Assembly (NCBI GenBank): GCA_022710975.1
Contig: JAKLGA010000012.1
Span: 1-64,000, forward strand
Source of the DNA: Myxococcota bacterium
Lineage (GTDB): Bacteria > Myxococcota > B64-G9
Length of the DNA: 64,000 nucleotides
Direction of reading: 5' to 3'
In this document: positions 37,076 through 56,169 of the stretch, piece by piece
How positions within the stretch are numbered: position 1 is the first letter of the stretch
Layout of the letters: every line of letters begins with the position of its first letter
Program-made: the position numbers and the translations under genes
The notes under the pieces: generated by a model
What the model was told of the DNA's origin: nothing
What the model saw: only the letters and a program-made list of their open reading frames with translations
Database searches by the model: none

Positions 37076-38707
37076 ATGGCGGACGAGGCGAGCGCAGCGG
37101 CTGGCATAGAGGGCAGCGGGAACGCCGAGCGGCCGGGGCTGGCCCGGGGGTTCGTCCTCCTGGCCGCCGGGTTCCTGGCCGGCACCCTGCTGCAGCACCT
37201 GCTCGAGCTGCTGCTGGGCGGGCCCGCCGCGGCCAGGGCCTGGGTCGTCCCGGGCGGACTGCTGTGCTTCGTCCTGGCGGTGGCCGCCGGCCTGCACCCC
37301 CGCGCCCACGGGCTCCTGGCCTCCAACCGCTTCTCGGTGCCGGTGCTGCTCTGGCTGACGGCCCTGGCCGCGCTCGGCACGGTCATCCTCCAGGGCCTCG
37401 ACCCGGCCCAGGTGCACGAGGTGTACGGCTGGGCCGCGCGGCTCATCCTGGGGCTCTACCTGCACGAGGTCTTCCAGTCGCTGGGCTTCGCCGTGGTGCT
37501 CGGGCTGGGCGCGGCGGGCCTGGCGCTGACCATCGCGCGCCGGAAGCCGCTCACCTGGCGGCGGGCCGGCGCCGTCCTGGCCCACCTGGGGATCCTGCTG
37601 ATCCTCGCGGGCGCGGCCGCGGGGGCGCTGTGGGGCGCCAAGGGCCGGCTGAACCTGCGCGAGGGCCAGGTGGCGGAGCACTTCACGGTGCAGCGCGACG
37701 GGCGCGCACAGCGGCTGCCGCTCGGCTTCCAGCTCCGGCTCGACGACTTCCGCCTGCTGGAGTACGACCCGCAGTGGCGGCTGATGGTCTTCGCCGTGCA
37801 CGGCGAGCGCGAGGAGCGCCTGCTCAGCGTGGATCCGGCCGATCCGCGGGAGGCGGCGGCGCTCCGCGAGTACGGGCTGGAGCTGCTGCGCCACCTGCCC
37901 GAGGGGCTGCCCGCGGCGGCGGCTCCGGCGCCCGCGGGGCCCGCGCACGTCCTGGTGGTGGGCGCCGCCCGCCTGCCGGTCGAGCCGGGCCAGACCTACG
38001 AGCTGCCGGAGGGGGCTGGCAGGCTCCAGGTGCTCAGGGCCTTCCACGACTTCGTGATCGACGCGGCCACCCGCCAGCCGCAGAACCGCTCCCCGCGGCC
38101 CGACAACCCGGCCCTCGAGGTGGCGCTGCTGGACGCCCAGGGCCGGGAGCAGAAGCGCACCTGGCTGTTCGCCAAGTTTCCGGCCTTCCAGCACCAGGCC
38201 GAGGCCGGCGCCGGCGGGCCCGCGCCCGTGTCCATCCAGTACGTGTTCACCCCGCCGGCCGGGGCGGCGCCGGCCGAGGGCCCCGTGGTCGAGCTCCGCC
38301 TGGGCGGGCTGCGGGAGCCCACCCGGCTCGGGCCGCGGCAGCCGATCCGCCTGGGCGGCGATCGGGTGCTGGTGCTGGCCCCCCGGGGCGGGGACATGGT
38401 GCGTGACTACCTGAGCGACGTGAGCGTGCTCGAGGGCGGCCAGCTCCGCCTGCAGCAGACCGTCGAGGTGAACCACCCGCTCGAGCACGGCGGCCTGGCC
38501 ATCTACCAGTCCGACTACCGCCCGGAGGATCTGGCCTTCTCGGGGTTCCAAGTCGTGCGCGACCCGGGCCTGCCGGCGGTCTACCTGGGCTTCGGGCTGA
38601 ACCTGGTGGGCGTGCTGCTGGTGGTGTTCTTCCCGCGCGGGCTGCCCTGGCGCCGCCGGGCTGCGGCCGGTGAGAGCGCGACCGGGGCCGCGGGAGGCGC
38701 CGCATGA
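37076..38707 (+). CDS. resB: ResB-like cytochrome c maturation protein (System II)
   Basis: 543 residues from the ATG at 37076, chosen for GGAGGAG upstream. Several membrane spans in the first 190 residues (AGFLAGTLLQHLLELLLGG, VPVLLWLTALAALGTVILQG, VLAHLGILLILAGAAAGAL), a large periplasmic part from about 190 to 500 and a last span near 500-520. The ResB signatures are LHLR-type text LNLREGQVAEHF, LGFQLRLDDFRLLEYD, EVNHPLEHGGLAIYQSDY and GFGLNLVGVLLVVFF. ResB and CcsA together deliver haem and attach it to CxxCH motifs in the periplasm. The pair is coupled by ATGA. The adjoining cytochrome genes, with about 50 haem sites, are the obvious clients. Confidence 0.85.
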   Translation: MADEASAAAGIEGSGNAERPGLARGFVLLAAGFLAGTLLQHLLELLLGGPAAARAWVVPGGLLCFVLAVAAGLHPRAHGLLASNRFSVPVLLWLTALAALGTVILQGLDPAQVHEVYGWAARLILGLYLHEVFQSLGFAVVLGLGAAGLALTIARRKPLTWRRAGAVLAHLGILLILAGAAAGALWGAKGRLNLREGQVAEHFTVQRDGRAQRLPLGFQLRLDDFRLLEYDPQWRLMVFAVHGEREERLLSVDPADPREAAALREYGLELLRHLPEGLPAAAAPAPAGPAHVLVVGAARLPVEPGQTYELPEGAGRLQVLRAFHDFVIDAATRQPQNRSPRPDNPALEVALLDAQGREQKRTWLFAKFPAFQHQAEAGAGGPAPVSIQYVFTPPAGAAPAEGPVVELRLGGLREPTRLGPRQPIRLGGDRVLVLAPRGGDMVRDYLSDVSVLEGGQLRLQQTVEVNHPLEHGGLAIYQSDYRPEDLAFSGFQVVRDPGLPAVYLGFGLNLVGVLLVVFFPRGLPWRRRAAAGESATGAAGGAA

Positions 38708-39531
38708 GCCACGCCTCGGTGCTCTTCCCGGCGCTCGCGGGCGGGCTGTACGCGCTGGCCGGGCTCGCGTACCTGGCCCTGTGGTGGCGCGCCAGCCGGG
38801 CGCTGCGCGCGCTGGCCAGCGCGACCTTCGCCGGCGCGCTGCTGATCAACCTGCTCCAGTTCGGCCTGCGCTGGGCGCAGGCGGGCCAGCCGCCCTTCAA
38901 GACGCTGTACGAGTCGCTGATCGTGGCCGCCGGGTGCCTCGCGCTGATCTACCTGGTGATCGAGCTGGTCTACCGGGCGCGCATCCTGGGCGCCCCGGCG
39001 GCCCTGGGCGCGGCGGTGATCATGCTGGTCGCGCTCCTGCGGGCGGATCGCGAGGCGGTCAACCTGCCGCCGGCCCTGCAGAGCCACTGGTTCATCCCGC
39101 ACGTGACCGTGTACTTCTTCGGCTACGCCAGCATCTTCCTGGCCGCCGTCGTGGCCGTGGTGTACCTGGTGCGCCCCGGGCCGATCGGGCAGCGGCGGCC
39201 CGATCTGACCGGCGGGAAGCCGATCGAGCTCAGCGCGTTGTTCGACGGGGCCGTGCGGTTCGGCTTCGCCCTGCTGACGGCCGGGATGCTGATGGGCGCC
39301 GCCTGGGCCAAGGTCGCCTGGGGCGACTACTGGGTCTGGGATCCCAAGGAGAACTGGTCGCTGGTCACCTGGCTGCTGTTCTGCGCCTACCTGCACCTGT
39401 ACTACTTCCACCACTGGCGCGGGCGGCGGCTGGCCATCCTGACCATCGCCGGCTTCGCCGCCATGGCCTTCACCTACCTGGGCATGCACCTGCTGCCCAC
39501 GGCGGCGCAGAGCATCCACGTCTACCAGTGA
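38704..39531 (+). CDS. ccsA: CcsA/ResC haem-handling protein of System II cytochrome c maturation
   Basis: 275 residues with about eight membrane spans and ATG overlapping the resB stop. The periplasmic haem-binding WWD motif is WGDYWVWDPKENWSLVTW near residues 206-223. His candidates for haem ligation occur in LQSHWFIPHVTVYFFGY near 118-135 and in GMHLLPTAA near the end. Length and motif order fit CcsA rather than the longer CcmF. With ResB it forms the CcsBA-type synthetase that exports haem and ligates it to apocytochromes. It ends 8 bp before the convergent response regulator gene. Confidence 0.92.
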   Translation: MSHASVLFPALAGGLYALAGLAYLALWWRASRALRALASATFAGALLINLLQFGLRWAQAGQPPFKTLYESLIVAAGCLALIYLVIELVYRARILGAPAALGAAVIMLVALLRADREAVNLPPALQSHWFIPHVTVYFFGYASIFLAAVVAVVYLVRPGPIGQRRPDLTGGKPIELSALFDGAVRFGFALLTAGMLMGAAWAKVAWGDYWVWDPKENWSLVTWLLFCAYLHLYYFHHWRGRRLAILTIAGFAAMAFTYLGMHLLPTAAQSIHVYQ

Positions 39532-42445: not shown

Positions 42446-46252
<3,807 letters not shown>

Positions 46253-46255
46253 ACG

Positions 46256-47572
46256 CTACTCCCCCATGTCCCAGCGGCCTCCGCCGACACCGGCCCCGTC
46301 CGCGGGCAGGGCCTGGACGGCCGCGGGCGGGTAGGCCGCGCCGACGGGTCCGCCCCGGTAGTACTGCCCCTCGAGGGCGACCGTGTAGCGCACGCTCACG
46401 TCCGGGGCCGAGCCGATCAGGGACTGGCGGAAGCGGAGCTGCTTGCCCGGGGTGGGCAGGCGGTGGGCCCACTCCACCTCCTCCGCGCCCGCGCCAGCCT
46501 CGTCCAGCGCCAGGCTGCCGCCGGCCCAGGTGTAATCGAACACCGGCGGCAGGTGCAGGCTCACCTGCAGCTCGTCGAGCTGCCAGGAGGCCGCGGGCAG
46601 GATCAAGCTCAGGCGGCCCGACAGGTGGAAGGCGCCCGGCTGGTCCACCAGCACCAGCTCCAGGCGGCCGGACTGATCGCCCACCCGGGGCGGCGTCACC
46701 TCCAGCCTGAGCTCCCCGCCCTCCAGGCGGAAGGGCGCGCTGGCCCCGTTCAGGTAGATCTTCTCGACCTGCGTCCCGGCTGGCAGGCGGAAGGACAGCG
46801 GCTGCCGGCCCTCGAAGCGGAGCTGGTACTGCACCCGCGTGACGCGCCGGCCCTCGAGCGTGGTGACGCTGGAGGCGTGGGCCGCGGTGATGACCGACTC
46901 GACCGGCGGGCGCTCCGCGGGCGCCTCCACGACCCGCGCCTGGGCGCGCGGCGCCCAGCGCACCCGGAAGCGCTCACCCCGGGGGAACAGGCTGGCGCCC
47001 TCGGCGCCGCGCCGGGCCCCGTCGCCCAGCAGGCGGAAGAGGCCCTCGTCCCACTGGAGGTCCAGCCGGGTGAGCGCCGCATTGGCCACGCCCAGCTCGG
47101 CCAGCAGGCCCGCGCCCTCCGGCCGGGCCTGCACCAGGAGCCCCAGGTCGAAGGCGTAGCGCCCGGGGGCGCGGGTGAGGAAGGTGAGCGTCCCGCCGTC
47201 GTCCAGGAGCTCGCCGCCCTCGACCGCGGGCAGGGCCGACAGGTGCACCTCGGGCGCGAGCTTCAGCAGCGGCACCCGCACCCAGGCGTCGTCGGCCAGC
47301 ACCGCCAGCTCGACGTGGGCGCTGAGGTCGACCGCGTCCTCCAGCAGGCGGCCGCTCAGCACCAGGCGCGAGACGGCCGCGTCGAGCGGCGCGGGCGCGG
47401 GCCGCGGCGCCCTGGCCCGTTCGTTCTCGTGCACCAGCCGGAGCACCTCCTCCAGCGGCAGGCTGGCGCGGGCCGCGGCCGCGGGCGGATCGTCCTCGGC
47501 CCGGGCCGCGGGCGGGAGGCCGAGCAGCGTGAGGCACAGCGCGCAGGCGAGGACCTCGCGTTCAGGCCGCAT
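46256..47572 (-). CDS. Secreted protein of unknown function, last gene of the cytochrome operon
   Basis: 438 residues with a signal peptide to about 25 (LACALCLTLLGLPPAARA) and no lipobox. The sequence is mainly beta-strand-like (SGRLLEDAVDLSAHVELAVL, RVTRVQYQLRFEGRQPL, RLELVLVDQPGAFHLSGRL), suggesting two or three beta-sandwich domains of a periplasmic or surface protein. No Cys pairs or CxxCH are present. The ATG overlaps the CreD-like gene by 11 bp, so they are translated together and probably interact. It ends 3 bp before the convergent 15-haem gene. I do not recognise the family. Confidence 0.7.
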   Translation of the reverse strand: MRPEREVLACALCLTLLGLPPAARAEDDPPAAAARASLPLEEVLRLVHENERARAPRPAPAPLDAAVSRLVLSGRLLEDAVDLSAHVELAVLADDAWVRVPLLKLAPEVHLSALPAVEGGELLDDGGTLTFLTRAPGRYAFDLGLLVQARPEGAGLLAELGVANAALTRLDLQWDEGLFRLLGDGARRGAEGASLFPRGERFRVRWAPRAQARVVEAPAERPPVESVITAAHASSVTTLEGRRVTRVQYQLRFEGRQPLSFRLPAGTQVEKIYLNGASAPFRLEGGELRLEVTPPRVGDQSGRLELVLVDQPGAFHLSGRLSLILPAASWQLDELQVSLHLPPVFDYTWAGGSLALDEAGAGAEEVEWAHRLPTPGKQLRFRQSLIGSAPDVSVRYTVALEGQYYRGGPVGAAYPPAAVQALPADGAGVGGGRWDMGE

Positions 47573-48809
47573 GACCCACCTCCTGGCCTGCCTGCGGATC
47601 GAGCAGGCTGGCCACCAGCCGCCCGAAGGCCGGCCGGGCGGTGAACACCATGAGCGCGGCCACCAGACCGGCGATCTCCAGCGTGTAGATGAGGCCGGTG
47701 TAGCCGTCCAGCACGACCGCCACCGAGGGCACGCCCAGGAAGGCCGCCACCAGCGCCAGGCCGAGCAGGGCGGGCCTGCCGCCGAGCAGCAGGCGCAGGT
47801 AGCCGAAGAGCAGGCCGGAGACGGCCGCGAGCGAGAGCGCGAAGGCCAGGTAAAAGCTCAGGAAGGCCGCCAGGTAGGCGAGCAGCACGAAGAACAGCCC
47901 GTAGCCGGCGGCCAGCAGGTAGGCCTCCCACAGCTTGAAGGCGCGCCCGCGCGAGAGCCCCAGGGCCACCAGCCCGGCGAACAGCAGCAGGAAGGGCACC
48001 GGGCTGCGGGTCAACATCCTGGAGAGGAGCTGATCGTAGGCCTGCTCCGAGGGCAGGATCAGCCCGACCGGCACCCCGGACTCCAGCGAGCCGTAGCTCC
48101 AGGTCAGCGCCACCTGGTCCTCGCCCACCTCGGTCGAGGCCGCGGGCACCACCCCGGCCGGGTAGTCGTAGTTGGCTCCGCCCGAGGCGCGCAGCGCCAG
48201 CCTGAAGTCGTTCACCCGCAGCTCCGGGTCGAGCAGGTAGGTGAAGGAGTCGAGCCCCCGGCCCTTGAAGGCGATGTCGAAAGCGAGCCGCTGGCCCGGG
48301 GCCACCCGGCCGGTCCACACCAGGGCCGCCTGCTCCGCCAGATCGGCCGCGGTCGGCTTGCCGTCCACCAGGAACTGGAGGTCGGACAGCAGGATCTGGT
48401 TGCGTGGGGCCTCGATGGGGAAGACGAACACGAGGTCCACGTCCCGCGGCTCGGGGTTCTGCACCTCGTACCGGCCGCGGAAGGCGAAGTCGAAGCCGGA
48501 GAAGTACACCAGCCCGCGCTTCCGGTAGTTCATGCTCGCCTCGACGTCGACGTGCTGCTTGGCGAGCGGCAGCGGCTGGAGGGTGTTGAAGACCGCGCCG
48601 CTGCCCACGTAGCGCACCGACGGGGCCGGCTGGCGGATGGGCGCGCCCCAGCGGTCCATCACGTCTTGCCGCAGCTCGCTGTCGGCGAACGAGGTGCGGT
48701 CGGTGATCTGGGCGGACAGGACCACCGCCACCCCCAGCACGATGGCCAGGGAGCCGAACAGGTGGTGGCGGACGGGCACCACGAACAGCGCGCGCAGCAG
48801 GCGTCTCAC
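47562..48809 (-). CDS. CreD-like polytopic inner-membrane protein
   Basis: 415 residues from a GTG with AGGAGGAGG upstream. One span near 17-35, a periplasmic beta-rich domain of about 230 residues (MNYRKRGLVYFSGFDFAF, then PEPRDVDLVFVFPIE), and six spans after about 265. This topology and the text GYGLFFVLLAYLAAFLSFY resemble the CreD family of inner-membrane proteins, whose molecular role is poorly known. In this operon it could anchor or sense the state of the cytochrome complex. The call rests on topology and faint motif likeness and is less sure than its reality as a gene. Confidence 0.6.
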   Translation of the reverse strand: MRRLLRALFVVPVRHHLFGSLAIVLGVAVVLSAQITDRTSFADSELRQDVMDRWGAPIRQPAPSVRYVGSGAVFNTLQPLPLAKQHVDVEASMNYRKRGLVYFSGFDFAFRGRYEVQNPEPRDVDLVFVFPIEAPRNQILLSDLQFLVDGKPTAADLAEQAALVWTGRVAPGQRLAFDIAFKGRGLDSFTYLLDPELRVNDFRLALRASGGANYDYPAGVVPAASTEVGEDQVALTWSYGSLESGVPVGLILPSEQAYDQLLSRMLTRSPVPFLLLFAGLVALGLSRGRAFKLWEAYLLAAGYGLFFVLLAYLAAFLSFYLAFALSLAAVSGLLFGYLRLLLGGRPALLGLALVAAFLGVPSVAVVLDGYTGLIYTLEIAGLVAALMVFTARPAFGRLVASLLDPQAGQEVGHAA

Positions 48810-48939
48810 GACTTCCCTCCTCCTGGCCCGGCGGTTGGCGCGGCCCGGGCACCTGGCTCCAGGGTGGGGCCGGGCCGGGGAGGGGTGATGGCGGGGCGGA
48901 GGAGAATGTCAGGGGAATTTGTGCAGGAACCGTGCAGGC

Positions 48940-49797
48940 TCAGCGGCCGGCGTGGCAGGCGGCGCAGTAGCCGGCGCTGTGGCAGGCCAGGCAGCGCCCG
49001 TCCGCCCGGCCGGCGGTGGCCGCCAGGCCGTGGGTGGCGGCCCAGGCGCCCGCGTGGTTCAGCGGCTTGGTGGTCCGGTGGCAGTGCAGGCAGGTGCCGC
49101 TCTCGTGGCAGGTCTTGCAGGAGTCGCGATCCCAGCCGGCCGCGAGCCCGTGGGTGCGCATGCGCCAGATGGCCGTGTGGCTGGCGGGCTCCCGGGTCCG
49201 GTGGCAGGCCGCGCACTGGTCCGCGCGGTGGCACTGCTTGCAGCCCTGGCCGTGGGCGGCGTCCTCCAGCATGAGCGCGAGCCGGCCGTGGGCCTTGCCG
49301 AAGTCGGCCAGGGCGTGGCTGGCGGGCTTCACCCGGCGGGCGTCCTGGCCGTGGCACAGGGCGCACTCCTTGGCGCGCAGCGGCAGGCTGCGCTCGCGGT
49401 GACAGGCCTGGCAAGCGTCGAAGGCGCCGAAGGGCTCTCCGGCCACCTGGCGGTCCTCGAGGGTGGGCGCGTGACACTCCCGGCACTCGACGCGGGCGGC
49501 GTGGGGCCTGTGGGGGAAGGCCGCGCGCGACAGCGGGCGGGCCTCGGCGGGCAGCCTCCAGGGCGGCAGCGCGTCCTCGTGGCAGTCGGCGCAGCCCGCC
49601 TGCTTGAGCGCCGGCTCCTCGACCGCCGGGTCGTGGCACTGGGAGCACTCGGCGCCCTGCTCCAGGTGGAGCTTGTGCGAGAAGAGCCTGGCGGCCGGCG
49701 CCGGGGCGCCCTCGGCCGCCCCGTCGGCGGCCAGCACCGCGCCGGAGGCGGCCAGCAGGCCGGCCAGCAGGGCGAGGGTGGTCGTGCGCGTGCTCAT
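48940..49797 (-). CDS. 11-haem periplasmic c-type cytochrome
   Basis: 285 residues with a cleaved signal peptide to about 23 (LALLAGLLAASGAVLA) and no lipobox Cys. Eleven CxxCH motifs follow (CSQCH, CADCH, CRECH, CQACH, CALCH, CKQCH, CAACH, CKTCH, CLHCH, CLACH, CAACH), one per 22 residues on average, with many extra His for bis-His ligation, starting FSHKLHLEQGAECSQCH in the manner of cytochrome c7/c3. AGAGGAGACAGG precedes the ATG. It is 12 bp after the barrel gene, the position of the periplasmic OmaB-type subunit in porin-cytochrome operons, but has more haems. Confidence 0.92.
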   Translation of the reverse strand: MSTRTTTLALLAGLLAASGAVLAADGAAEGAPAPAARLFSHKLHLEQGAECSQCHDPAVEEPALKQAGCADCHEDALPPWRLPAEARPLSRAAFPHRPHAARVECRECHAPTLEDRQVAGEPFGAFDACQACHRERSLPLRAKECALCHGQDARRVKPASHALADFGKAHGRLALMLEDAAHGQGCKQCHRADQCAACHRTREPASHTAIWRMRTHGLAAGWDRDSCKTCHESGTCLHCHRTTKPLNHAGAWAATHGLAATAGRADGRCLACHSAGYCAACHAGR

Positions 49798-49809
49798 GGC
49801 CTGTCTCCT

Positions 49810-51252
49810 CTAGATCGACTGTCCCAGGGTGAGGGTCAGGATGTGCACGTCCCGATCGGTCCACTCGAGCTCGTAGCGCGCGCGCACGCTGAGCCAGCCC
49901 AGGGCCTTGAACCCGAGCTGGCCGTAGACCGTGCGCACGTCGGCCACCTCGCGCAGGTCGGCGAAGTAGTCGTACTTGAAGCGCTGGTAGTAGCTGCCGG
50001 CCTCCGCCTGCAGCCACGCCCCGTCGTAGCCGAGCGAGCCGCCGACCGCCGCGTGGTGGACGTCGGGCTGGGCGCTGCCGGGGAGGGTGAGGTGCTCCTC
50101 CAGGCTCAGGCTGGCGTACAGGCCCTGTACCCCCAGGTCGTGGGCCACCACCGCGGCGTACACGCGGGCCAGCGAGCGGTTGAAGGGGCCCTCGTCGCCC
50201 GACAGCACGTGCCGCCCGGCGAAGCCCAGGTGCAGGCCGAAGCGGCCGGCCTCGGTGCTGAAGTCCTTCCAGGCGTCCAGGCGCCAGCGCAGGTTCGGCA
50301 GGCTCTCGCCCAGGATGAGGTACAGGGGGTCCAGGCGCTCGCCGAGCTCGCGCAGCGTGGCGGGCTGGGCGTCCAGCCCGAGGTCCAGCCCGAGCTCCCA
50401 GGGCCGGTGCTCGAAACGCAGGTCCGCGCCCGCCAGCGCCAGCTGATCGTTCACCCCGCGCAGGCGGGCCTGGACCCGCAGCCTGTCCTCCAGCGCGTAG
50501 GCCAGCGTCAGGCCGTAGCCGTGGTCGGTGCGCTGCTCCCGCGCCACCTCGTCCGCGCTCAGCACGTCCTCGAGCTGGAGGCGGTAGTCGAGCTCGAGGC
50601 GCAGCCCCTCGAGGGGCCGGAGCACCAGGCCGGCCGAGCCCAGCCAGTCCTCGAACATCCCGGCCGACAGCTCGAAGAAGTGGACCGTGCGGCCCCCGAA
50701 GGCGAACACCTCCAGCAGCCGGCCGGCCGCGCGCACGTCCAGCGCCACCCCGTCGAAGGTGACGGCCGGGCCGTGCTCGCTGACCTGCCGCCCACCGCGG
50801 GCGAGCTTCAGCACGCCGTCCGAGAGGTACTCGGCCGAGAGCGTGTAGATGTCCCACCACACCCGCCGGTAGCCGGTCCACTCGGCCAGGGCCGTGGAGC
50901 GGCCGTCCTGGGTGTTCCCGTCCGCGTCCAGCCACAGCGCCCCCGACAGGTGGGCCTGGAAGTCGTCGTCTGGGGAGATCACCCCGCCGTCCAGGAACAG
51001 GCGCAGGTCGTGATCGCGCTCGTCGCCGATCGGATCGGAGCCGTAGGTCGTGGTGGCGCGGAAGCGGTACTGCTCCTGCGCCAGCAGCCAGAAGGCCCAG
51101 CGGGGCGGCGGCGCGAGCTCCTCGACGGCCTCGGCCGGCGCCCCGACGCCCGCCCCGGCTCCGGGTCCGGCCGGGGCGTCCTCGGCCCGCGCGGCCGGCG
51201 TCAGGGCCACGAGCAGGACCAGGCTCGACATGGAGGTTGCGATCGTGCGCAT
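49810..51252 (-). CDS. Outer-membrane beta-barrel, porin subunit of the cytochrome conduit
   Basis: 480 residues with a signal peptide to about 24. The rest shows alternating hydrophobic/polar strands throughout: HDLRLFLDGGVISPDDDFQAHL, LRLELDYRLQLEDVLSADEV, YGLTLAYALEDRLRVQARLR and the last strand LSVRARYELEWTDRDVHIL, ending in a short LTLGQSI rather than a terminal Phe. About 18 to 20 strands are suggested. It is encoded between a lipidated multihaem cytochrome and a periplasmic multihaem cytochrome, the same order as OmcB-OmbB-OmaB components, so a sheath for an electron wire through the outer membrane is the best reading. No sequence match to MtrB is obvious. Confidence 0.75.
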   Translation of the reverse strand: MRTIATSMSSLVLLVALTPAARAEDAPAGPGAGAGVGAPAEAVEELAPPPRWAFWLLAQEQYRFRATTTYGSDPIGDERDHDLRLFLDGGVISPDDDFQAHLSGALWLDADGNTQDGRSTALAEWTGYRRVWWDIYTLSAEYLSDGVLKLARGGRQVSEHGPAVTFDGVALDVRAAGRLLEVFAFGGRTVHFFELSAGMFEDWLGSAGLVLRPLEGLRLELDYRLQLEDVLSADEVAREQRTDHGYGLTLAYALEDRLRVQARLRGVNDQLALAGADLRFEHRPWELGLDLGLDAQPATLRELGERLDPLYLILGESLPNLRWRLDAWKDFSTEAGRFGLHLGFAGRHVLSGDEGPFNRSLARVYAAVVAHDLGVQGLYASLSLEEHLTLPGSAQPDVHHAAVGGSLGYDGAWLQAEAGSYYQRFKYDYFADLREVADVRTVYGQLGFKALGWLSVRARYELEWTDRDVHILTLTLGQSI

Positions 51253-51273
51253 GGGCTCGATTCTCCCGCGGGG

Positions 51274-54200
51274 TCAGTTCCAGAGGTAGCCGGAGTGCGT
51301 CTCGCCGTGGCAGGTGCCGGTGCAGCGCCCGCCGCTCCAGGTCATGGTCGGCGCGTTCACGTTCTTCGCGCCGTTCACGTGCAGGTCCGGGCCGACGATG
51401 GAGCTGGCGCCGTTGACCACCAGGCTGTGGCAGTCGTTGCAGCCGGAGCCCTCGTCCCAGATGTGCTTGTGGTGCTCCCCGCTCATGGCCTCGAAGTCGG
51501 CCTCGGCCGAGCCGCTGGCCGGGTGGCAGGCGCGGCAGGTGGTGATGGGGGTGGTGAAGTCGGCGGCGTTGCGGTTCACCCGCCCGGTGCCGTGGCAGTA
51601 GAGGTTGTTGCAGGCCGGGGCCGCGTAGGCGCCGGCCGGGCTCAGCCCGCCGGACAGGCGCACCTCGGACACCCCGGGGGTGGCGTCGAACATGTGCCCG
51701 GCCACCAGCAGGGCGGCCGGCTTCTGGTGGCACTGGACGCAGTCGTAGGCCGGGTGGGTGGTGCGGGTGACGTGCTCGCTGTGGGCGCCGACCGTCTGCA
51801 GGGCGCGGTCGGTGCGGTTGCGCAGATCCTCGGCCGGCGCACCGGTCTGGTTATCCAGCCCGCCGTGGCAGAAGGTGCAGTCGGTGCGCCAGCCAGCCGG
51901 GTGGCACTGGTCGCAGCCCTGGTTGGCGCCCCCCCCGTCCAGGCCCTGGCCGTGGCAGGTCCGGCAGTCCATCACCCCGAGCAGCGCGTCCGTGCCGTGC
52001 ACCAGCGGGCTGTCGTAGCCCAGCGGGTGGCCGCCGGAGGCCTGCACCTGGCCGTCGATGTGCAGCTCGGGCGCCAGGAACTGGTAGCCGGCCGCGATCA
52101 CCTCGGCGTGGCACACCTGGCACTGATCGTTGGTCGGGTGCCAGCCCCCGGGGGGCAGGCCGTGGCAGGTGCCGCAGGCGGCCTGGGTGCCATCGACGCG
52201 CGTCCAGGTGGGGTCCTGCAGGCTGCCGCCCTCGACCAGGCTGGCCCCGTGGCAGTACGTGCCGGCGCAGGTGGCGCCGTCCCAGGAGGCCTGGGCGCCG
52301 TCGGCCTGGGTGATGTCGCCCCAGGCGAGCTCGGCCGGGCGTGGGTCGATGTGCCCGGTGTCCAGGGCGTCGGCGTGGATCACGTGGCAGGCGCCGCAGG
52401 GGATGGCGCGGCGCCAGGACGAGGCCGACAGGTGGGCGGTGTGCGCGCCGACCCCGCGGATGGTCGGGTTGAGCGCGCCGGCCACGCCCTCGGGCGGAGC
52501 GCCGCTCTGGTTGTCCCGGCCGCCGTGGCAGAAGGTGCAGCTCGTGCGGAAGTTCGGGTGGCAGCCCTCGCAGCCCAGGCCCGACAGGCCGCCCTGCAGG
52601 TCCGCCCCGTGGCACACGGCGCAGTCGGCCGGGTGCAGGTCGTTGAAGTCCGCGCCGTGCTGGTCCGGGTCGGCGTAGCCGTCCGGGTGCGGCGAGCTGA
52701 GGTCCAGGTGGCCGTCCACGTGGCGCTCGGGCGCGGTGAAGCTGCGGTCGGCGGCCACCACCGCGCCGTGGCAGCGGTGGCAGTCCTGCGCCTGGGGGTG
52801 CGTGCCGCCGGGCGGCAGTCCGTGGCAGGTGCCGCAGGCGGCCTGGCTGCCGTCCACCACGGTCCAGGCGGGCTGGACGTTCGAGCCGTTCGGATCGGGG
52901 AGCGTGGCGCCGTGGCAGTACACCCCGCTGCAGGTGGTGCCGTCGAAGGCCGGTTCGGCCGCGCCGCTGGCGGCGAGCGGACCCCAGGTCAGCTCGGCCG
53001 GGGGGCTGGAGTCGTTGTGCCCGGCGTCCCCGACCTGCGCCGGCACCTGGTGGCACTCGCGGCAGGTCAGCGTGGCGTGCCAGTCCGAGGTCCCCAGGTG
53101 GGCGCGGTGGGCGCCCACGCCGCGGGCGGTGGTGTCCTGGCCGCCCTGCAGGTCCAGCGGCGGGGCGGCGCTGTCCGCGTCGCCGTGGCAGGAGTTGCAG
53201 GCCGTGGCCGAGGCCTCGACCAGGCCGTCGATGTGCCGGGCCGGATCGACCCAGCGCCGGCCCTCGGCGATCGCCCGGGTGTGGCACATCTCGCAGTTCG
53301 GGTTCTGCGGGTGGCCGCCGCCCGGGGGGAGCGCGTGGCACGAGCCGCAGGCCGACTGGGAGCCGTCCACCTGGGTCCAGCGGGGACTCGGGTGCGCGCC
53401 GCCGGCGGCGGCGATGGCCGCCCCGTGGCAGTACACGCCGCTGCAGGAGGTGCCGTCGTAGGCCGGCGCCGAGCCCCAGGCCGCGGCCAGCGCGCCCCAG
53501 GTGAGCTCGGCCGGGGGCTCCGAGTCGAGGTGGCCGGGGGCCTCCATGGTGGCGGGCACGCGGTGGCACTGGTCGCAGGCGAGCGGCGCGTGCCAGTCCG
53601 AGTAGCCCAGGTGGGCGCGGTGGGCGCCCACGCCGGGCGCCGTGGTGGCGGCGTTCCCGGAGAGATCCACGGGCGGCGCGGCGCTGAGCTCGTCGCCGTG
53701 GCACAGCGAGCAGCCCGCCGTGCCGGACACGTCCAGGTGGCCGTCGAGGTGCCTGCCCTTGACCAGGTCGATCGCGCCCGCCGCGGTGAGGGTGTCCGGG
53801 TGGCAATCCCGGCAGCTCGTCGAGGTCGGGTGGGGCGGGGGAGGGGGGAAGCCGTGGCAGCTCCCGCAGGTGATCTGGCTGCCGTCCACCTGGGTCCAGG
53901 CCGGCGCGGCGTGCAACCCGCCGTGGAGCGTGCCGCCGTGGCAGTAGGTGCTCGCGCAGCGCCCGGCGGCCCGGTCCCAGGCCGGGTTCGAGCTGCCCGT
54001 GGTGGCCAGGGCGCCGAAGGTCACCTCGGCCGGGCGCGGATCGACGTGCCTGGGCGCGTCGACCTGCGCGGGCACCACGTGGCACTCCGCGCACGCCAGG
54101 GCCCCGCGGATGCGGCCGTCGGTCAGGTGCACCTGGTGCGCTCCCACGCCGGGGTGGTCCACGGTGAGGTTGTCGTCCAGGTCGGACGGCGGCGCAGGGT

Positions 54201-54333
54201 TCTGCGCGCTGCCGTGGCAGCTCGAGCAGGTCACCTCGGGCAGACCCTGCCCGAGCTCGGGGTGATCGCAACCCGCGGGGGCCAGCCCGAGCGCACACGA
54301 CCAGAGCAGGGCATGGGTGCTCGTCAGCTTCAT
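51274..54333 (-). CDS. About 30-haem outer-membrane c-type cytochrome lipoprotein (CxxxxCH/CxxCH type)
   Basis: 1019 residues, ATG after GGAGGAG. Lipobox LAPAGC, Cys at 22. I count 24 CxxCH, five CxxxxCH (CASTYCH, CSGVYCH twice, CAGTYCH, CNNLYCH) and one CxxxCH (CTGTCH) motif, so up to 30 haems. The sequence falls into five related modules with the phrases GVGAHRAHL, PAELTWGALAA, a CxxxxCHG site, WTxVDGSQxxCGxCHxLPPGGxHP and a final CxxCH; this is the pattern known in Geobacter multihaem proteins as the CxxxxCH...CxxCH domain. First gene of a five-gene operon with barrel and periplasmic cytochrome. Likely the cell-surface end of an outer-membrane electron conduit. Confidence 0.9.
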   Translation of the reverse strand: MKLTSTHALLWSCALGLAPAGCDHPELGQGLPEVTCSSCHGSAQNPAPPSDLDDNLTVDHPGVGAHQVHLTDGRIRGALACAECHVVPAQVDAPRHVDPRPAEVTFGALATTGSSNPAWDRAAGRCASTYCHGGTLHGGLHAAPAWTQVDGSQITCGSCHGFPPPPPHPTSTSCRDCHPDTLTAAGAIDLVKGRHLDGHLDVSGTAGCSLCHGDELSAAPPVDLSGNAATTAPGVGAHRAHLGYSDWHAPLACDQCHRVPATMEAPGHLDSEPPAELTWGALAAAWGSAPAYDGTSCSGVYCHGAAIAAAGGAHPSPRWTQVDGSQSACGSCHALPPGGGHPQNPNCEMCHTRAIAEGRRWVDPARHIDGLVEASATACNSCHGDADSAAPPLDLQGGQDTTARGVGAHRAHLGTSDWHATLTCRECHQVPAQVGDAGHNDSSPPAELTWGPLAASGAAEPAFDGTTCSGVYCHGATLPDPNGSNVQPAWTVVDGSQAACGTCHGLPPGGTHPQAQDCHRCHGAVVAADRSFTAPERHVDGHLDLSSPHPDGYADPDQHGADFNDLHPADCAVCHGADLQGGLSGLGCEGCHPNFRTSCTFCHGGRDNQSGAPPEGVAGALNPTIRGVGAHTAHLSASSWRRAIPCGACHVIHADALDTGHIDPRPAELAWGDITQADGAQASWDGATCAGTYCHGASLVEGGSLQDPTWTRVDGTQAACGTCHGLPPGGWHPTNDQCQVCHAEVIAAGYQFLAPELHIDGQVQASGGHPLGYDSPLVHGTDALLGVMDCRTCHGQGLDGGGANQGCDQCHPAGWRTDCTFCHGGLDNQTGAPAEDLRNRTDRALQTVGAHSEHVTRTTHPAYDCVQCHQKPAALLVAGHMFDATPGVSEVRLSGGLSPAGAYAAPACNNLYCHGTGRVNRNAADFTTPITTCRACHPASGSAEADFEAMSGEHHKHIWDEGSGCNDCHSLVVNGASSIVGPDLHVNGAKNVNAPTMTWSGGRCTGTCHGETHSGYLWN

Positions 54334-54499: not shown

Positions 54500-55684
54500 A
54501 TGCGCGTCCTCCGCCGCACCGTCCAGCTCGCCTTCCTGGGCCTGACCGTGGCCGTGGGGCTGGGGGCGGCCATGGGCTGGCTGCAGGGCGCCAGCGTGGA
54601 GGGCTATTGCCCCATGGGCGGGCTGGCGGCCCTGCCCTCGGCCATCACGACCCAGCGCTTCTCCTGCTCCACCGGGGAGGCCAACTTCACCGCGCTGGCC
54701 GGACTGCTCGTGCTGGCGCTGCTCGCGCGCAAGTCCTTCTGCGCCTGGCTGTGTCCCCTGGGCACGCTGCTCGAGTGGCTCGGCCGCCTGGGCGCGCGCC
54801 TGCGGGGGCGTCGGGCCGCCTCCCCGGCCGTGGGCCTGCTCGCGCCCGCGCGCGCGCCGGACCGGCTGGCCCGCTGGCTGCGGCTCGGGGTGCTGGCCGC
54901 GATCGTGGCCGCGACCTACACCACCAGCGAGCTCGTCTTCCGGCCCTACTGCCCCTACTACAGCCTGACGTCGTTCCATGGCCATGACGTGGAGGCCTGG
55001 AGCTACGCCATCCTGGGCACGGTGCTGCTCGCGGCCCTGGTCTTGCCCATGGCCTGGTGCCGGTACCTGTGCCCGCTGGGCGGGGCGCTGTGGCCCTTCG
55101 CCCGGCTCGGGCGGCTGCGCGTGGCCCGCGAGGAGAGCGCCTGCACGGGTTGCGGGAAGTGCGACCGGGCCTGCCCGCACGGGCTGCGGCCGTCGGCCGC
55201 GGATGAGGTGCGCTCGGGGGAGTGCACGCTCTGCCTGGAGTGCCGCGCGGCCTGTCCGGAGCGGGGCGCCCTGGGTGTGCGCGCGGGCGCGCTCGGGGCC
55301 CGGCCGCGGGTGTCCGCCTGGGCGGTGCCCGGGTTGCTCGGCGGTCTGGCCGTCCTGGTGGTCGTGGCCAGCGGGCTGTGGTCCATGCCGTCCTACGCGC
55401 TCGACATCCCCGACGCCGCGCCGGCCGCCCGTCCGGCCGTGGTGAGCCTGGTGGTGGACGGGGTGCGCTGCGTGGACACCGCCCGCAAGGCGGTCGCCCA
55501 GCTCGAGCGGCTGCCGGGCGTCATCCGGGTGGTGGCCTACGCCGCGCGCCACACGCTCGAGGTGCACCACGACGGCGCCCGCCTGGATCGGGAGGCCATC
55601 CGCCGGGCCCTGGAGGCTCCGGTGATCGACCCGCAGAGCGGACAGATCCGCTTCCACGTCTACAAGGTGCTGGAGATCGAGTGA
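54500..55684 (+). CDS. NapH/NosR-type membrane ferredoxin with C-terminal HMA-like domain
   Basis: 394 residues. Membrane spans near 9-28, 68-85, 131-150, 172-192 and 272-295. Two CxxxCP motifs on the cytoplasmic side (FCAWLCPLG near 81 and WCRYLCPLG near 194) are typical of NapH/NosR quinol-linked proteins. Two [4Fe-4S] ferredoxin motifs follow: CTGCGKCDRACPHG and CTLCLECRAACPE. The last 75 residues resemble a heavy-metal-associated fold (LVVDGVRCVDTARKAV, LPGVIRVVAYAARHTLEV), with one Cys instead of CxxC. The protein could move electrons from quinol or a cytoplasmic donor to the periplasmic cytochromes. It is co-transcribed with the small lipoprotein 20 bp downstream. Confidence 0.85.
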   Translation: MRVLRRTVQLAFLGLTVAVGLGAAMGWLQGASVEGYCPMGGLAALPSAITTQRFSCSTGEANFTALAGLLVLALLARKSFCAWLCPLGTLLEWLGRLGARLRGRRAASPAVGLLAPARAPDRLARWLRLGVLAAIVAATYTTSELVFRPYCPYYSLTSFHGHDVEAWSYAILGTVLLAALVLPMAWCRYLCPLGGALWPFARLGRLRVAREESACTGCGKCDRACPHGLRPSAADEVRSGECTLCLECRAACPERGALGVRAGALGARPRVSAWAVPGLLGGLAVLVVVASGLWSMPSYALDIPDAAPAARPAVVSLVVDGVRCVDTARKAVAQLERLPGVIRVVAYAARHTLEVHHDGARLDREAIRRALEAPVIDPQSGQIRFHVYKVLEIE

Positions 55685-55704
55685 CTCCAAGGAGGAAGGC
55701 GACG

Positions 55705-56169
55705 ATGAAGAAGCTCATGTGGATCACCCTGGCAGGTCTTTTCGTCCTGGCGGCCTCCTGCGCCAAGCCCGAGGGCGTGGCCCCGGCCGGCGAGCCGGGC
55801 CAGGCTGCGCCGGCGGAGCCCGCCCAGCCGCAGCCGCCCGCGCCGGCCAAGGTCGAGTCCGCCCCCGCCCCGGCGGCCGAGACGGCCACCTTCGCGGTGC
55901 CCGGGCTGAACGCGGAGCTGGTGACGAAGCTGACCCAGGCGCTGGCGGACAAGCCGGGCGTGGTGTCCGCCAAGGCCGACGAGGCCGGCGGCACCTACGC
56001 GGTCAGCTTCACCCCGGGCCAGACCAGCCCGGACGCGCTGCTCAAGGCGCTGCAGGCGGTGAAGGCCGACTGCAGCCTGAAGGGCGTCGCGCCCGCGGCC
56101 GGCGACGACGGGGCCGCGCCGAAGCACGATTGCGGCGGCTGCCCCTACCACGACACCTGCGGGAAGTGA
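55705..56169 (+). CDS. Small lipoprotein with HMA-like fold and C-terminal Cys cluster
   Basis: 154 residues, ATG after AAGGAGGAAG. Lipobox VLAASC (Cys near 19), an Ala/Pro/Glu linker to about 58, then a ferredoxin-like alpha/beta domain (FAVPGLNAELVTKLTQAL, KPGVVSAKADEAGGTYAVSF, DALLKALQAV) that matches the heavy-metal-associated fold but lacks the CxxC metal site. The end has a Cys cluster HDCGGCPYHDTCGK that could bind metal or an iron-sulfur or haem cofactor. The same fold ends the preceding protein, so the two may interact or have exchanged the domain. Located in the periplasm, it may be a metal or electron carrier. Confidence 0.75.
   Translation: MKKLMWITLAGLFVLAASCAKPEGVAPAGEPGQAAPAEPAQPQPPAPAKVESAPAPAAETATFAVPGLNAELVTKLTQALADKPGVVSAKADEAGGTYAVSFTPGQTSPDALLKALQAVKADCSLKGVAPAAGDDGAAPKHDCGGCPYHDTCGK

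Follow-up and report, generated by a model that had tools for sequence, protein, structure and literature searches.

Genes 1 to 3 of five adjoining minus-strand ORFs very probably encode an outer-membrane porin-cytochrome conduit in an uncultured Myxococcota-type bacterium (positions 48940–54333 of the window, by which we mean the whole 64,000-nt stretch of DNA analyzed here), and genes 4 and 5 appear to form a separate module that adjoins it by chance (Table 1). The five ORFs at 46256–54333 are present as a preliminary description of this DNA had claimed, and both of its haem motif counts were reproduced: gene 1 encodes up to 30 (24 CxxCH, five CxxxxCH, and one CxxxCH) and gene 3 encodes 11, all CxxCH. 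The CxxCH pattern matched the window DNA 50 times against 2.7 expected, and shuffled proteins contained at most four (gene 1) and three (gene 3) motifs. The haem motif numbers of both genes are far above chance.

Table 1 Positions of the putative conduit genes and their neighbours in the window.
Feature	Position	Strand	Description
Gene 1	51274..54333	-	1019-aa multihaem cytochrome, probable lipoprotein; predicted surface-side partner
Gene 2	49810..51252	-	480-aa outer-membrane beta-barrel; 22 strands in the AlphaFold2 model; proposed conduit sheath
Gene 3	48940..49797	-	285-aa periplasmic 11-haem cytochrome; predicted transmembrane wire
Gene 4	47562..48809	-	CreD-like inner-membrane protein; opens the separate two-gene module, outside the conduit
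Gene 5	46256..47572	-	Secreted protein of no known family; adjoins gene 4 in relatives; outside the conduit
Convergent 15-haem cytochrome	42446..46252	+	Lipoprotein-like; three Big_2 Ig-like domains
Divergent NapH-like ferredoxin	54500..55684	+	Membrane ferredoxin (4Fe-4S); C-terminal HMA-like domain

Conservation and spread of the three-gene cassette

The barrel (gene 2) family occurs in nine of the 195 genomes of the phylum, each of a different genus, and was found in none of the eight other genomes of the window's own family. All nine barrel copies adjoin an 11-haem cytochrome together with a lipocytochrome of the CxxxxCH type (three of the nine loci are short contigs), and the complete surface cytochromes of these loci have about 19 to 30 motifs. 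When the phylum was searched with gene 3, the same nine genomes led with E-values of 1e-39 or better, and the next match stood at 1e-12; no second gene 3 homologue was found in the window's genome. Judged from this gene content, genes 1–3 are a conserved three-gene cassette.

The genes run barrel, periplasmic cytochrome, surface cytochrome in the other eight copies; the window alone has the order surface cytochrome, barrel, periplasmic cytochrome. The preliminary description had taken the order in the window to be that of the Geobacter complexes. In Geobacter, the published order is barrel, periplasmic, surface (ombB-omaB-omcB; PMC4245776), and it is matched by the eight relatives and not by the window, which is permuted. 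Since the published clusters and the eight relatives are barrel-first whereas the window is surface-first, the argument from gene order was wrong.

The GC3 of the cassette (0.97–0.98) resembles that of the neighbouring genes, and nothing in its base composition points to a foreign origin. As composition is uninformative on this point, transfer is argued from the patchy distribution, which suggests that the cassette has moved horizontally.

A two-gene form was observed at four other loci (L150:6204-8822, L151:3625-6215, L152:5041-7586, and L148:6339-8737), in which a barrel-like gene (455–490 aa) is followed by a 12–13-haem periplasmic cytochrome without a surface cytochrome. This form occurs in large Myxococcaceae-like genomes, presumably of aerobic bacteria, and in same-family relatives; the same-family genomes G005 and G006 have a 13-haem version of it instead of the cassette. 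The pair is followed in L150 and in L152 by a gene for a small lipoprotein, which has a Big_5 domain in L150.

Predicted components and the proposed electron path

Gene 1 matches TIGR01904 (CxxxxCH...CxxCH domain cytochromes) at 130 bits, against a curated cut-off of 27, and also PF09698 of Pfam. It is the sole TIGR01904 protein detected in its own genome, and none was found in the same-family genomes. Its signal peptide ends in APAGC, the lipobox (PAGC) being non-canonical, and its relatives have a signal peptide followed by a Cys at the equivalent place; the product is probably a lipoprotein. The residue after the lipid-Cys is Asp, at a position that is variable among the relatives; in E. 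coli, Asp at this place is an inner-membrane retention signal. Aligning gene 1 against itself produced no separate repeats under the settings applied, and its modular reading is therefore drawn from motif spacing and domain matches.

The product of gene 2 had been called an outer-membrane barrel, and modeling bore this out: AlphaFold2 on a seven-sequence alignment returned a 22-strand barrel (pLDDT 78, pTM 0.71), with pLDDT >90 in most strands. Barrels of 22 strands, such as those of TonB-dependent receptors, are wide enough for a protein domain. No Pfam or NCBIfam model matched gene 2, PF11854 (MtrB_PioB) matched none of the seven barrel family members, a sequence search of the PDB gave nothing meaningful, and plasmid records and viral contigs contained no match. 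Foldseek with the model retrieved generic porins, AlgE, and pilus ushers at TM scores of about 0.3–0.5, with no conduit barrel among the best 50 matches. Thus, neither sequence nor fold searches detected a relationship to a proven conduit barrel. Comparison by hhalign with the other barrel-like proteins of Myxococcota (L148 type) was also non-significant (probability 0.3%, E 0.21).

In an alignment of nine gene 3 sequences, all 11 haem sites are kept, one copy having CxxxCH as its last motif. Ten His residues outside the motifs are invariant (positions 41, 44, 96, 99, 161, 182, 207, 216, 248, and 256), as expected for the axial (distal) ligands of bis-histidine haems, a role predicted from the alignment. 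The C-terminal part contains three CxxCHxxxxCxxCH pairs, and the spacing of the last six haems is 9/32/9/32/9, within one residue, in all nine sequences; this regularity is a usable search signature. Profile homology of gene 3 to the 12–13-haem cytochromes of the two-gene loci runs from end to end (hhalign 99.85%, E 1e-30), so that the homologues lying beside barrel-like genes come from other families as well as from same-family genomes. It also matches the 333-aa chain A of 6r2q, which we take to be MtrA, at E 5e-6. The AlphaFold2 model of gene 3 alone (pLDDT 52) was too poor for measuring haem distances.

Taken together, the three-gene cassette, the barrel model, the ten invariant distal His residues, and the homology between gene 3 and the Pcc-type periplasmic cytochromes of Myxococcota uphold the earlier proposal of an outer-membrane electron conduit as far as genes 1–3 are concerned, and the same evidence supports well the Myxococcota-type host proposed with it. 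The gene 3 product, with its 11 haems, would sit inside the 22-strand barrel of gene 2 and carry electrons across the outer membrane. The gene 1 product, presumably exposed on the cell surface, would hold up to 30 further haems there and exchange electrons, in either direction, with a mineral, a second cell, or a soluble carrier. We infer the formation of a complex by the three products, the direction of electron flow, and the substrate.

A conduit that takes electrons in, by oxidizing a metal, a mineral, or a partner cell, would differ from the Geobacter-like reading only in direction. The sequence fixes no direction, and the high-haem conduits PCC3 and Uet have been linked to electron uptake (PMC5566968, PMC10734462). 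Nevertheless, the window's genome has NrfH/NrfA-like genes of anaerobic respiration, and the published Anaeromyxobacter Pcc clusters come from Fe(III) reducers (PMC4245776); we regard uptake as unlikely, though a reading to be taken seriously.

Genes 1–3 might instead serve as a periplasmic or surface electron store, a capacitor beside an unrelated porin, as the very large number of haems and the resemblance of the barrel fold to generic porins and ushers would allow. However, the barrel and the 11-haem cytochrome adjoin each other in every one of the nine genomes in which either is present, the Myxococcota relatives of gene 3 lie next to barrel-like genes even where there is no surface cytochrome, and the barrel is of a strand number that can hold a protein domain. 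These observations make a capacitor improbable and argue for the conduit.

The adjoining CreD-like module and other neighbours

Gene 4 itself matches PF06123 below the curated cut-off (E 0.12; 11.6 bits against 23). Of 13 members of its family, eight match PF06123 (best E 6e-16), and the family also matches NF008712. The CreD-like identity given to gene 4 therefore held, in the sense of a distant CreD homologue recognized via its family members. Relatives of gene 4 occur in 75 of the 195 genomes of the phylum, most at E <1e-90, and in the fetched flanks gene 5, whose family has no Pfam model, comes after gene 4 wherever the strong form of gene 4 is present and the flank is complete. The pair is also present in SAR324. 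No ORF with at least three CxxCH motifs was found in the fetched flanks (up to 20 kb) of the gene 4-5 pairs.

In the three relatives checked (L038, L039, and L043), a response regulator and a histidine kinase adjoin the pair; in E. coli, creBC adjoins creD. Gene 4 and its surroundings resemble creABCD of E. coli in these respects, the matches to PF06123 and NF008712 and the two-component pair nearby in relatives, but gene 4 is very divergent and its partner, gene 5, belongs to no known family. As far as gene content tells, genes 4 and 5 are outside the conduit and constitute their own conserved pair, widespread in Myxococcota; in terms of function, the pair is best read as a putative envelope-integrity module.

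Gene 4 was considered as a quinone-reactive haem b protein and rejected, because none of its His residues is positioned for haem b binding within the membrane. It has only four His residues, at 15, 16, 86, and 413, and lacks the two HX13H motifs that are a feature of the PCC3 inner-membrane protein. These four residues rule out a di-haem b protein of the kind proposed for PCC3.

The preliminary description had read the five genes as a single operon in which the CreD-like and beta-rich proteins were partners of the conduit. The spacing is tight within genes 1–3 (21 bp between genes 1 and 2, 12 bp between genes 2 and 3) and within genes 4 and 5 (an 11-bp overlap), but genes 3 and 4 are separated by 130 bp, and relatives show two separate units; on this comparative context, the five-gene operon was rejected. 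The co-occurrence of all five genes in related genomes was not observed either, since the gene 4-5 pair lies beside the conduit in one of the nine copies, that of the window, and the partnership claim fails on the conservation of the pair by itself, with no cytochromes nearby, in the phylum and in SAR324. That all five genes are one functional unit, with the CreD-like and beta-rich proteins assembling or anchoring the conduit, is highly improbable: the genes adjoin on the same strand and no terminator-like site was found in the 130-bp gap, so that co-transcription of genes 3 and 4 is possible in this organism, but the pair stands in dozens of Myxococcota genomes and SAR324 without such multihaem ORFs in its flanks, adjoins a two-component system in the relatives checked, is found at only that one conduit copy, and has in gene 4 too few His residues for the di-haem b role proposed for PCC3 (PMC5566968).

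The convergent 15-haem cytochrome is possibly an optional surface cytochrome of the conduit. In one relative (L070), the conduit has a homologue of it nearby, and close homologues occur in G183 (near the conduit) and in many Myxococcaceae-like genomes without a conduit. As a fixed partner it was rejected because of these many conduit-free genomes, which make it at most optional.

On the other side, at 54500–56169, the gene after the NapH-like ferredoxin encodes a small lipoprotein with CGGCPYHDTC at its end; together they are a possible quinol-linked donor. The ferredoxin is a candidate inner-membrane electron donor that could feed the conduit; its linkage to the conduit was seen in no relative among the loci checked, and an inner-membrane partner specific to the conduit could not be named with confidence. 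A cytochrome c assembly protein (PF01578) is encoded near the cytochrome genes, at 38704–39528. Elsewhere in the same genome (contig C2, L117:7972-12207), an NrfD-like membrane protein is fused to a 14-haem cytochrome, which is unusual, and adjoins an Fe-S protein.

Relationship to known conduits

Most likely, the locus is a known kind of conduit in a new form, a Myxococcota three-gene cassette with a barrel that matches no named family. The Anaeromyxobacter Pcc clusters (Group IV) consist of a porin and a periplasmic cytochrome of 12–14 haems and 338–344 aa, with no surface partner (PMC4245776). Gene 3 is homologous over its full length to the L148 cytochrome (345 aa, 12 haems, beside a 455-aa barrel-like gene); L148 is equated with Anaeromyxobacter Pcc solely on size, number of haems, and gene content, including the lack of a surface cytochrome beside it. 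Unlike the published clusters, the window has a surface cytochrome, with 30 motifs, and the L148-type barrel and gene 2 are not detectably homologous.

OmbB-OmaB-OmcB of Geobacter likewise combines a barrel, a periplasmic cytochrome, and a lipoprotein surface cytochrome, in an order common to the eight relatives, but its cytochromes have 8 and 12 haems against 11 and 30 motifs here, and the order in the window is permuted. PCC3, found in Gallionellaceae and other Proteobacteria, shares the combination of a porin with a high-haem extracellular cytochrome, of up to 35 haems (PMC10734462); it differs in its periplasmic cytochrome of 21–27 haems and in an inner-membrane protein with paired His residues that gene 4 does not have. 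The Uet pathway (UetJ, porin UetC) is similar by its description, a porin with an 11-haem cytochrome (PMC10734462), whereas its extracellular partner is a tetrahaem protein. MtrCAB of Shewanella has the same design, with the weak match of the gene 3 profile to chain A of 6r2q, but MtrB has 26 strands (PMC12133095) against 22 in the gene 2 model, which PF11854 does not match.

The haem counts, which the preliminary description had considered unusually high, are not exceptional: besides the 35 haems of PCC3, cytochromes with 24 and 49 haems adjoin an OmbB-like porin (PMC7399161), and a Desulfuromonas cytochrome has 86 haem motifs (PMC12133095). No description of the cassette of genes 1–3 was found in the open literature on Myxococcota conduits, of which our coverage is incomplete. 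Tentatively, and with rather more doubt than confidence, we propose that the cassette (barrel, 11-haem wire, and giant CxxxxCH lipocytochrome) may be an undescribed conduit class that was transferred among several Myxococcota families, has a barrel of an origin independent of MtrB/OmbB, and takes, in the window's lineage, the place of the two-gene 13-haem form of some same-family genomes.

Barrel-like genes paired with 12–13-haem cytochromes are common in the phylum, including Myxococcaceae-like genomes; to our knowledge, Myxococcaceae are not known for metal respiration. The cassette would add to these a defined three-gene conduit of Myxococcota, with about 41 haems and a compact barrel of 22 strands that has no named relatives.
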